A DNA stretch of 64,000 nt from Brachybacterium sillae (GTDB taxonomy: Bacteria > Actinomycetota > Actinomycetes > Actinomycetales > Dermabacteraceae): assembly GCF_025028335.1 (NCBI RefSeq), contig NZ_JAFEUW010000001.1, forward strand, positions 806,001 to 870,000, written 5' to 3'. Numbering within the stretch: the stretch's first letter is position 1; the number at the start of each line of letters is the position of its first letter. The notes below the pieces were generated by a model that did no database searches, had not been told where the DNA came from, and worked only from the letters and a program-made list of their open reading frames with translations. A program made the translations under genes and the position numbers. Positions 14,550 to 25,050 of the stretch are shown piece by piece.

Positions 14550-14600
14550 TCACACGTTGAGCCGGAATCACACGTTGAGCCCGAACCCCACCACGTTCGG
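14550..14600 (-). other. Left attachment-site relic: duplicated ychF 3' end
   Basis: Read on the minus strand, TTCCGGCTCAACGTGTGA (14567-14550) codes FRLNV-stop, the expected C-terminus of YchF (family ends EFRFNV). Directly before it is a second, near-identical copy TTCGGGCTCAACGTGTGA preceded by GTGGTGGGG, corresponding to the VVEF codons. No ychF gene is present here. It sits 33 bases before the serine recombinase start and is taken as the attL/attR scar of the island. Confidence 0.6.
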
Positions 14601-14632
14601 TAGCCGAATAACCTTTGACGTAGATTGACTCC

Positions 14633-14745
14633 ATGAGTGCTGAGCCTCGGCGAGCCGCCGTCTACCTGCGGATCTCTCAGGATCGCAAGAACCGTCGCCT
14701 GGGTGTGGACCGCCACGGGGAGGACGCCGAGGCGCTCATCAAAGC
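14633..14745 (+). pseudogene. Large serine recombinase/integrase, N-terminal stub
   Basis: ATG 14633 starts SAEPRRAAVYLRISQD followed by RLGVDRHGEDAEALI, the N-terminal catalytic strand of large serine recombinases; the Ser of YLRISQD is the nucleophile. After about 38 codons the gene is replaced by IS-derived sequence, so the resolvase domain and the DNA-binding C-terminus are gone. It probably mediated integration of the island, since it lies right beside the ychF-like att relic, where serine integrases normally lie. It cannot function now. Confidence 0.7.
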
Positions 14746-14870
14746 GGCTCTTCCGAGTTCCGGTGGGGGTGAGCGGCGCGCCGGTGTCGTGATGCCCGGG
14801 TGAGAGGGGTCGAGGCCTCCAAGATCGGGAGCGACCAAGCACCCTGTCCGGAAGCCCTCGACGTTGTCTG
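14746..14870. mobile_element. Truncated end of an ISL3-like insertion sequence
   Basis: The integrase reading frame is interrupted at GGCTCTTCCGAGTTCCGG, which resembles the GGCTCTTC-type terminal repeat of ISL3-family elements. About 125 bases of non-coding IS leader follow and are then cut by the IS1380-family element. No transposase part and no second end are present. The family call rests on memory of the terminal repeat only. Confidence 0.45.
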
Positions 14871-14885
14871 AGCCTGGATCCGCCG
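14871..14885 (+). repeat. Left terminal inverted repeat of IS1380-family copy 1
   Basis: AGCCTGGATCCGCCG; the match to the other end is exact over 15 bases and stays strong for several more. Confidence 0.8.
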
Positions 14886-15020
14886 AGCCGGTTTTCGTGG
14901 CGTCGTGAAGGCGTTTCGGGCGCGGGCTGAGTAGGCGCTTCGGAGAAGGGTGTGAAAGGTCTGCCGGTCTGCCCGGCTTTTCCACTTCGGGTTCCTTCTC
15001 GTCGGGACAGGGGCTGGCGG

Positions 15021-23363: not shown

Positions 23364-24187
23364 GATGAACCTCCGTTCGGAGCTGGCACGCCGTCGAGTC
23401 TCCTATGGACCATGGAGACCATCGTCAGCACTTCGAGCAGTTCATCGTCGTTGATCGTCCGGTTCAGTCTCGGGTCGTGCGCTGTCGGGTTCCGGTAGAG
23501 ACCATTCAAACCCTTCACGAGATTCGCGAGCCCGGTCTGCTCGTCCTTCTCGGTCTGTGTCCGCAGAGAGTTGATCGCCAGCAGCGGGACGCCTGACTTG
23601 CCGAGCGCCAGAGTTGCGTCGACGAGTGCAGCCCCGTCGCCCGATATGCCGGTCAGGCTTCGAAGCCGATCGAAGATGCTCTTGGTCGCCTCCAGACAGG
23701 CATGGAAGTGCGCCTTCTTCAGTACCTCCATGGAGCAGTACCGGAGCACCTCGGGATGCGCCTTCCGGCGCTGCAGCTCGTCGCGGATCGATGTCGCGAT
23801 GCGTGTGGCCTCATCGAGCGTTTGTGCCTGGGCACCGCGTGCGACCTTGCCCTCGTCATTGACCCGCAGCCCGACGAAGGCGAGGTGCTCGTTGAGACGA
23901 TCCTGACGAAGGGCGAAGAGCTCCGGTTGGCTGCGATACCGTACCGGGTCCATCGCCGTGACGATGAATGTGACGATGCGCTTCGAGCTCTGGTCCTTGT
24001 TCTGACAAGCGACGAAGGCCTCGGCGAGCCGGTCGCGCTTGGTCGCCGTCGGGATCGGGTCGTCCATGCGCAAGCGAAGGAGCAGGTCGCCAATCTCGCG
24101 ACCCGTCAACCCGTCGGACGTGTCCGCGAGAACGTCGGCGATCGCCTTCAGGACTGGATACTTCCAGGACGACTGGGGTGCGACCAC
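23360..24187 (-). CDS. AbiJ-like N-terminus fused to TIGR02391 (Ymh) HEPN-type domain
   Basis: Protein of 275 aa. The first 110 residues (REIGDLLLRLRMDDPIP, then RQDRLNEHLAFVGLRVND) resemble the AbiJ N-terminal domain seen in abortive-infection proteins. The C-terminal part (FHACLEATKSIFDRLR, NLVKGLNGLYRNPTAHDPR) is the TIGR02391/Hypoth_Ymh domain; Arg232 and His237 form its R-x4-H motif, as in HEPN RNases. It is the first gene of an operon with the 373-residue HEPN-like protein. Cleavage of RNA during phage infection is a reasonable hypothesis, not shown. It starts about 60 bases from the internal att copy. Confidence 0.82.
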   Translation of the reverse strand: MVAPQSSWKYPVLKAIADVLADTSDGLTGREIGDLLLRLRMDDPIPTATKRDRLAEAFVACQNKDQSSKRIVTFIVTAMDPVRYRSQPELFALRQDRLNEHLAFVGLRVNDEGKVARGAQAQTLDEATRIATSIRDELQRRKAHPEVLRYCSMEVLKKAHFHACLEATKSIFDRLRSLTGISGDGAALVDATLALGKSGVPLLAINSLRTQTEKDEQTGLANLVKGLNGLYRNPTAHDPRLNRTINDDELLEVLTMVSMVHRRLDGVPAPNGGSS

Positions 24188-24246
24188 GTCAGATCACCGA
24201 CGCTGTGCAATGACGAGCAGGCGCCAACCGGGCATACACTGACCGC

Positions 24247-24303
24247 CTACTTCTTGCCACTTCCAGACGTTCCTCCGCGCCGGAATTCCACCACGTCCCC
24301 GTT
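24247..24303 (-). other. Internal attachment-site relic: second ychF 3' end
   Basis: On the minus strand this reads GGGGACGTGGTGGAATTCCG and then a foreign tail, coding NGDVVEFRRGGTSGSGKK-stop. The first 20 bases equal the ychF codons for GDVVEFR except for one silent change. No ychF body is attached; the preceding codon is the stop of the zinc-ribbon gene. It marks the junction between two elements stacked at the same site. Confidence 0.65.
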
Positions 24304-25002
24304 TCATTGGTCGCCTCCGTCTGTCTTGTCTACAGGCCACCAATGCTCATCATTCTTGACACATTCCGCAGCCATTCGCCGTTGCGTGACTTTGCGCTTC
24401 CCCGTGTTCAGATCATCTACCCACTGAACAGGCTTGTCGTAGAATCGCAGCCGGCCACCGTCGAACGGGCAGGTTCCTTGCATGCGAGCAAGCCCGATCC
24501 TTCTACCCCAGCCGGTAAGCGCCGGGAGCCAAGACAGTGACGGGAAATGCTGAGTCTCGTTCCTTGCAACGCGACGCAGAAACATGGCTAGGGCAAAGAC
24601 GACTACGAGTCCCAGGAAAACAAACGCCCAGACAGGCTGGACCGGCTTCAGATTTCCGGCACCATCCATGCCGAGAATCGTGCTGACTAAAGGTTCGACG
24701 ACCTTGTAGACCGACCCAAGACTCAGGAGTCCAGAGATCACGCTGATCCAGGTGAGAACAGCAAGCGTCAGAGGACTTCGCCAAGACCATTTCGGCTCAT
24801 ATGTGGCGCGGGCTTCCTGGGGCTCACCTCCCAGGTGAATGTCACCACCAGCCTGAAACACACCACCCGAGATATCGCCACCACCGGTGTCGACGTTTTG
24901 ATTGGCTCCGTTATCGCTATCGCCTAGCCGCTTGCCACACTCCGGGCAGAACCGCGCACTTTGGGGGACTGTCGCCCCGCAAGCCGTGTTGGGGCAGATC
25001 AC
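24304..25002 (-). CDS. Membrane-bound zinc-ribbon protein with GGDI repeats
   Basis: Protein of 232 aa from GTG 25002, whose GTGA overlaps the ychF stop by four bases. Cys3, Cys8, Cys19 and Cys22 (CPNTAC, FCPECGKRLG) form a zinc ribbon. TGGGDISGGVFQAGGDIHLG is a Gly/Asp repeat resembling those of some signalling-associated proteins. Helices at about 78-100 and 122-140 anchor it to the membrane, and a C-terminal domain with CPFDGGRLRFYD may hold a further metal or ligand site. The gene lies between two ychF-like att copies, so it is cargo of a small element. Function unknown. Confidence 0.75.
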   Translation of the reverse strand: MICPNTACGATVPQSARFCPECGKRLGDSDNGANQNVDTGGGDISGGVFQAGGDIHLGGEPQEARATYEPKWSWRSPLTLAVLTWISVISGLLSLGSVYKVVEPLVSTILGMDGAGNLKPVQPVWAFVFLGLVVVFALAMFLRRVARNETQHFPSLSWLPALTGWGRRIGLARMQGTCPFDGGRLRFYDKPVQWVDDLNTGKRKVTQRRMAAECVKNDEHWWPVDKTDGGDQ

Positions 25003-25050
25003 TTCTTCCCGCCAGAGGTTAGTCCGCTACGGAACTCCACCACGTCCCCG
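24999..25050 (-). other. Right attachment-site copy inside the ychF 3' end
   Basis: The last codons of ychF: GGGGACGTGGTGGAGTTCCG is shared with 24247-24303, followed by a foreign tail (SGLTSGGKK) instead of the family's FNV ending. This is the island-chromosome junction on the ychF side. Confidence 0.65.

Follow-up and report, generated by a model that had tools for sequence, protein, structure and literature searches.

The 3′ end of ychF as a probable attachment site for mobile gene cassettes in actinobacteria

The 64,000-nucleotide stretch of Brachybacterium sillae analysed here (assembly GCF_025028335.1, contig NZ_JAFEUW010000001.1, positions 806,001 to 870,000; hereafter the window) carries, directly behind the GTPase gene ychF, gene cassettes bounded by copies of a short core sequence that also lies inside ychF. 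Comparison with other genomes suggests that the 3′ end of ychF is an attachment site for a family of mobile cassettes, apparently moved by one clade of large serine recombinases, a reading to which we assign a probability of about 0.83. The VVEFR codons at the ychF 3′ end would serve as the chromosomal site for site-specific insertion, and large serine recombinases of about 510 residues, borne by some cassettes, would act in cis or in trans on recombinase-free ones, with strand exchange inside a shared GAGTTC. Each insertion would leave ychF open with a new C-terminus, and successive insertions would produce tandem arrays of defence, toxin-antitoxin and other genes. The four site types, the exact cassette ends, the link between recombinase and island and the replacement of the ychF tail can be read directly from the sequences, whereas recombination itself, action in trans and circular intermediates are what we infer from comparative data.

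Core sites at the 3′ end of ychF

The window ychF ends in GDVVEFR-SGLTSGGKK-stop, and its core, GTGGTGGAGTTCCG, recurs in the same orientation at distances of 749 bp and 10.45 kb from it (Table 1). The first recurrence falls in a 40-nt direct repeat (24263-24302 and 25012-25051; 85% identity, spacing 749), of which the copy at 24263-24302 codes for GDVVEFR-RGGTSGSGKK-stop without a ychF body. The third core (14581-14594, minus strand; 2 mismatches in 14) reads PNVVGFGLNV-stop and has an element-type left arm, from 14616 down, with 5 mismatches in 35. The core filter returned one match in the rest of the window, with 3 mismatches, and the window cores exceed chance expectation. An earlier reading made from the sequence alone had proposed three attachment-site copies and two stacked elements in a genomic island at ychF. 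The copies are real, and the repeat at 749 bp together with the distal core delimits two cassettes, one of 749 bp (zinc-ribbon gene) and one of 9.7 kb (PD-Lambda-3 genes plus insertion sequences); the single island gives way to a widespread cassette array.

The same reading took an FRLNV-stop at 14550-14567 for the displaced native end of ychF. The motif is present, but it belongs to a second 18-nt copy adjacent to the distal core and not to the core itself. Cores are within 0.2 kb of VapBC in both the window and G042 and of VapB alone in G027, and VapBC lies 0.7 kb beyond a core in G008, so FRLNV may not be a native end; it may instead be the start arm of a third cassette carrying VapBC. Such a cassette is possible, not firm, because the stretch from core to vapB is poorly conserved, and no distal core was found beyond the window VapBC. 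A partial VapC lies 1.5 kb beyond a core in G024.

Among 98 genomes, one per species, a ychF search gave a strong match (E < 1e-100) in 92 and weak GTPase matches only in the other six. The 30 best loci, the window's included, were compared by C-terminus: ten carry a tail of the kind xG(L/I/G)(T/P)SG, and the others end in FRFNV or similar, as had been predicted for relatives without an insertion. Two proposals of the sequence-only reading are supported: that integration takes place at the VVEFR codons and that every element brings ychF a replacement C-terminus. Sorted by left and right arm, 108 distinct cores comprise 45 ychF-tail, nine ychF-native, 35 element-native, 16 element-tail and three other sites; among the 16, Propionibacterium L129 is really ychF-tail and Nocardia L131 probably a chance match. 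Judged by their arms, these classes are the four expected of attL, attB, attR and cassette junctions, the attB core of ychF being GACGTGGTGGAGTTCCGCTTCAACGTCTGA. In 24 ychF loci totalling 557 kb, with an in-frame stop required and ychF's own sites excluded, cores with at most 2 mismatches numbered 29 forward against one reverse, and those with at most 3 mismatches 39 against eight.

Two variable positions of GTGGTGGAGTTCCG locate the likely point of exchange. In these counts, as in those of start overlap below, L131 and rows marked '?' are left out and L129, sorted by script as element-tail, is kept there; the 49 untailed ychF ends represent 47 genomes, since G008 and G011 count twice, and may include some cassette arms. 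At position 6, a base other than G occurs in 15/49 untailed and 19/45 tailed ychF ends, 8/35 element-native and 1/15 element-tail sites. At position 13, A occurs in 17/49 untailed ends against 1/45 tailed ones (element-native, 7/35; element-tail, 0/15). Since position 6 varies in both kinds of ychF end and A at position 13 is nearly confined to untailed ends, the switch would fall between the two, within GAGTTC. Element halves joined in a script to model attP form an inverted repeat with its best centre at GTGG|TGGA in seven of nine elements; shuffling gave p values of 0.000-0.02 in three of the nine and of 0.048 and 0.056 in two more.

Serine recombinases in ychF islands

The large serine recombinase placed beside the distal core by the sequence-only reading does begin there, but it survives as a truncated relic of 39 residues with an insertion sequence (IS) beyond it. 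The relic is 87% identical to the N-terminus of another in G031 (L051, 13304-13690, reversed stretch), so that relics of the same lineage stand beside the distal core in both genomes. A search of 48 genomes (G031 absent) with the relic N-terminus found other matches of at most 51% identity. Intact large serine recombinases occur in the ychF islands of G024, G038 and Zhihengliuella, each over the cut-offs of PF00239 (Resolvase) and PF07508 (Recombinase) and 52-67% identical to one another. The Rothia recombinase, which runs off the end of its locus, matches the Zhihengliuella one at 93% identity, and identities are 36-40% for a likewise cut Pauljensenia recombinase at ychF; other fetched recombinases reach at most 33% over long alignments, with one up to 43% over about 108 residues. 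In a tree with 15 others, the eight ychF-island recombinases, two of them cut by locus ends, form one group with support of 95/96.

Two surveys link this clade to the site. In 47 family genomes (E ≤ 1e-40) there were three matches, all behind ychF, and in 394 class genomes (E ≤ 1e-60, with scoring limited to the three best first-look candidates of each) three more, all between ychF and a distal core. One of the latter starts 9 bp past the ychF stop and two align from about 50 bp inside the distal core. A distal core lies beyond the recombinase in five of the six matches; the sixth, in G041, is a recombinase fragment joined to other sequence and has no distal core.

Large serine recombinases were also seen as tandem pairs of about 490 and 525 residues (G045:C1:704891-706684, G048:C1:305585-310387 and G038:C20:7363-12165). 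These pairs are ccrAB-like in layout, and their sampled members fall outside the ychF clade. G045 and G048 each have a second such pair elsewhere; the G045 member beside ychF has a short open frame, and the pair behind ychF in that genome is tentatively taken for a separate transposon. The G038 island also holds a small resolvase-like open reading frame (ORF) of about 248 residues.

Cassette arrays, tails and cargo

Read for up to 33 kb downstream of ychF, related genomes reveal a recurrent insertion hotspot, with tandem cassettes of about 0.5-23 kb between cores. The array of G023 has six cores in 6.4 kb that bound cassettes of 1.0, 0.53, 1.9, 0.85 and 2.1 kb; the sixth core ends in FRFNV and a weaker seventh follows. 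The tail does recur among relatives, which in the absence of islands would have spoken against the sequence-only reading; of the 16 tailed loci for which long sequence downstream of ychF was available, however, 12 have a native-type closing core. One recombinase-free cassette carries a DUF262-like gene with a PADLOC match to Orf5/HEC-06. It measures 1936 bp in three Brevibacterium genomes (including G127), as the first cassette behind ychF, and 1935 bp in G023, where it occupies third place in the array and its frame is split. Its interior is 91-96% identical across Brachybacterium and Brevibacterium. Outside it, identity drops to 27-36% for the downstream flanks in all pairwise comparisons and to 30-33% for the upstream flanks between genera; upstream flanks reach 86-96% among the three Brevibacterium because the flank there is ychF itself. 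By eye, from N-termini, a serine hydrolase cassette (Pfam Beta-lactamase) is common to Brevibacterium and Nocardiopsis, an ATPase cassette reading like OLD to Kocuria and Brachybacterium G031, and a TIR protein cassette (TIR by Pfam) to Brevibacterium and Microbacterium. Counterparts of the window's PD-Lambda-3 B homologue and of its partner occur in the G038 island, 75% and 84% identical, under a tail of the same GGTSG subtype.

These cassettes bear on the view that the window holds an ordinary genomic island or decayed prophage inserted twice in the ychF 3′ end, the other loci being unrelated insertions. The single recombinase relic beside the distal core and the IS-riddled content of the window fit that view, as do larger elements in G024 with relaxase-like and excisionase-like ORFs, which were named by reading, with no family search. 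It is nevertheless unlikely, as short recombinase-free cassettes (0.5-2 kb) that run exactly from core to core are found repeatedly in different genera and array positions, and the loci share core and tail types and recombinases that are mostly of one clade, G045 being the exception.

The tail itself is widespread. One degenerate pattern, which fixes part of the tail so that its constancy is partly by construction, was run against 84,980 species genomes and matched 39 stretches, all actinobacterial. Of these, 33 lie at the 3′ end of ychF itself, in 19 named genera: Kocuria, Actinomyces, Actinotignum, Corynebacterium, Brevibacterium, Propionibacterium, Trueperella, Tessaracoccus, Pauljensenia, Brachybacterium, Cutibacterium, Schaalia, Zhihengliuella, Nocardiopsis, Canibacter, Microbacterium, Rothia, Dermabacter and Arcanobacterium. 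The Nocardia match (L131) lies elsewhere than at ychF and is regarded as a chance hit. No ychF is in view at the sites L132, L136, L141 and L160, although the ychF of the L136 and L141 contigs appears in L144 and L158, and L127 starts inside the tail. A similar pattern was found in ten of 396 genomes of the order, and variants include TGIPSGSKK, HGGTSGTGGKK and FSPTSK. Its presence in many genera, and in two species of one genus (G042 and G045), would also be expected if the tail were a vertically inherited YchF ending whose downstream copies arose by duplication and homologous recombination. That origin is highly improbable: the tail is patchy within the genus (6 of 24 same-genus loci, the window's counted), the left arms of the downstream copies are element sequence and not ychF, and synonymous sites turn from host-like to element-like inside the core.

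Insertion of cassettes, the reading we prefer, may also explain how cargo is expressed. The GTG start of the window's cassette 1 gene overlaps the stop codon of ychF (GTGA). Such a 4-bp overlap between stop and the start of an ORF of 60 or more residues was found at 21/45 tailed ychF ends and 6/15 element-tail sites, against none of 35 element-native and none of nine native ychF sites (27/60 tail sites versus 0/44 native-type sites overall). As the stop of the T-type tail (xGLTSGGKK) often overlaps the first cargo start, cargo is probably translated behind ychF and would need no promoter of its own; the coupling of translation to ychF is thus suggested by the arrangement of stop and start codons. 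With L129 excluded, 13 of 49 element-left sites have an upstream reading frame of 100 codons or more that crosses the core in phase with ychF, two have one in another phase and 34 have none.

PADLOC matches among the cargo comprise PD-Lambda-3 B, Orf5/HEC-06, OLD/GajA-like ATPases, type III and type II restriction-modification systems and PDC-S01, with partial matches to SpbK and HNH-effector; 11 of 19 chosen proteins scanned match at E 1e-3 or better. The first island of L085 (G381) encodes a beta-lactamase-fold serine hydrolase and an AadA_C nucleotidyltransferase (Pfam; 1044-1889 and 1910-2806). The window zinc-ribbon protein contains a NQNVDTGGGDISGGVFQAGGDIHLGG stretch and probable membrane helices; Pfam found nothing in it beyond the ribbon and PADLOC nothing. 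One homologue (G144, L194; 37% identity) was found among 396 genomes, and none in the other 57 of 58 relatives.

Other arrangements were seen at the site. In L048 (G097:C1:1852000-1871999; 977, 7074, 7428) a stretch of roughly 63 codons from the 3′ end of ychF is repeated 6 kb downstream of the gene, 65% identical to the window protein and followed by another core; this is possibly another element type with a longer ychF 3′ replacement. L049 (G083:C19:35346-41411) has two ychF copies with 3.6 kb between their starts. The untailed ychF ends of L035, L055, L175, L180 and L186 continue directly past the stop with CGTTAATGACG- or CGTTATTGACG-type sequence, a similar stretch in L043 was translated by eye as a HigBA-like pair, and HigBA-like pairs were read by eye after several native-type ends. 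There is possibly a second cassette class whose arm restores FRFNV.

Several observations weigh against cassettes moved by a single recombinase clade. Four of the 16 tailed loci (G041, G045, G048 and G325) have no distal core within 20-33 kb. In G045 the recombinases found 2.5 kb behind ychF are an unrelated pair, of which one member appears truncated. Because three candidates per genome were scored in the 394-genome survey, copies away from ychF were possibly missed. No core occurs within 1.5 kb of the G144 zinc-ribbon homologue. The modelled attP repeat gave p values of 0.22-0.79 in four of nine elements, and its centre falls some 4 bp to the left of the proposed exchange interval. An attP search of plasmids and phages and a tail-pattern search of viral contigs gave no match, and no circular form was seen. 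Purely F-type arrays are tied to the recombinase solely by shared cores and arms. Finally, the window genome and seven of the other 19 searched gave no PF07508 match, these genomes being array-bearing or ychF-tailed (G005 and G023 are about 85% complete). Their arrays presumably arose through a recombinase that was later lost or that came from outside, and it is from array-bearing genomes without PF07508 that we infer action in trans. With its recombinase decayed and none detected elsewhere in the genome, the window array is probably frozen unless one arrives.

Table 1. Features of the window at and behind ychF (window positions).
Feature	Coordinates	Strand	Remarks
ychF, C-terminus replaced by SGLTSGGKK	24999..26111	-	Pfam YchF-GTPase_C
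attL-type core GTGGTGGAGTTCCG inside ychF	25030..25043	-	tail and stop extend to 24999
Cassette 1 gene, 232-residue zinc-ribbon, probable membrane protein	24304..25002	-	
Cassette 1/2 junction core	24281..24294	-	followed by tail RGGTSGSGKK-stop
PD-Lambda-3 B homologue, cassette 2	23360..24187	-	PADLOC E 1.6e-70; TIGR02391/Hypoth_Ymh
Partner ORF of PD-Lambda-3 B homologue, cassette 2	22242..23363	-	no family match
IS transposase part (DDE_Tnp_1)	20933..21988	+	other part 18761-19204; apparently split by the IS at 19352-20764
DDE group 1 (DDE_Tnp_1_4) transposase within cassette 2	19352..20764	-	
Two ORFs, cassette 2	16712..18372	+	16712-17635 and 17644-18372; no Pfam match
Insertion sequence	14868..16524	-	DDE_Tnp_1_4 ORF 15021-16400; inverted repeats 14868-14892 and 16500-16524
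Large serine recombinase start, relic, beside distal core	14633..14749	+	
attR-type core with element left arm AAAGGTTATTCGGCTACCGAAC	14581..14616	-	
Two tandem F-type right arms (GLNV-stop, FRLNV-stop)	14550..14580	-	possibly cassette 3 start arm
VapBC toxin-antitoxin pair	13764..14431	-	possible cassette 3

Known systems and significance

Staphylococcal cassette chromosome (SCC) elements form composite arrays, carry restriction cargo and include ccr-less members. The ychF system shares with them and with the Enterococcus cassette chromosome, as described in the part of PMC6222049 consulted, a large serine recombinase, an attB in the 3′ end of a housekeeping gene, attL and attR, and variable cargo. 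The attL/attR direct repeats and composite tandem arrays found here are a further likeness to SCC, whereas the target is ychF and not rlmH (orfX). Many of the present cassettes hold a single gene, the C-terminal tail is swapped, the cargo start often overlaps the tail stop and the hosts are actinobacterial, all unlike SCC. Ccr models scored far below their cut-offs against the three intact island recombinases (CcrB 63-66 bits, cut-off 900; CcrA 30-38, cut-off 700; CcrC 19-29, cut-off 900).

Integrons and recombinase-less attC clusters consist of promoterless-looking single-gene cassettes with the site at the gene 3′ end and an expressing platform; they include toxin-antitoxin cassettes and arrays without a recombinase. 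The exchangeable single-gene arrays described here are similar, with the same 1936-bp cassette in different positions and hosts. The recombinase is of the serine and not the tyrosine type, the core would act as double-stranded DNA with no attC hairpin, and the platform is a host gene with a rewritten C-terminus. That the arrays are a true integron, with attC cassettes moved by a tyrosine integron integrase, is the least probable account despite the single-gene and toxin-antitoxin cassettes, the gene-3′-end site and the arrays without a recombinase: none of 21 genomes exceeded the TIGR02249 integron integrase cut-off, tyrosine recombinases occurred in all 21 but by listed position none in the island stretches, the core GTTCCG does not fit the attC consensus GTTRRRY, and the first site is inside ychF and not an attI. 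The ychF array works like SCC and resembles an integron array, and fits membership of neither.

A search for published descriptions of a ychF cassette system found none; subscription papers and supplementary integrase lists lay outside its scope, and a ychF attB may sit unremarked there. The Integrase-On-Demand paper (PMC12884075) reports genomic islands that insert into protein-coding genes and restore them; ychF does not occur in its main text, and unlike the islands presented there, short cassettes stack here and leave a non-native tail across genera. A pneumococcal prophage between dnaN and ychF that alters the ychF promoter (PMC6375853, consulted in part) is likewise a mobile element near ychF, at an unrelated 14-bp site. 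This entry point thus appears to be undescribed.

A broader proposal, which we hold tentatively and at somewhat less than even odds, is that actinomycetes possess a serine-recombinase counterpart of the integron. In it ychF would be both attachment site and expression platform, and promoterless single-gene cassettes would be captured in frame, rewriting the C-terminus of YchF and being translated by stop/start overlap, in at least 19 genera and with the recombinase provided in trans from larger elements. The arrangement makes it possible to test whether serine recombinases build integron-like arrays, and ychF-targeting serine recombinases with a conserved attB are candidate integration tools. 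A ychF ending in xGLTSGGKK would be a simple signature for candidate defence genes, since the genes that follow are likely cargo, and the ychF 3′ end would represent a place where genes for anti-phage defence and toxin-antitoxin systems recurrently enter actinobacterial genomes.

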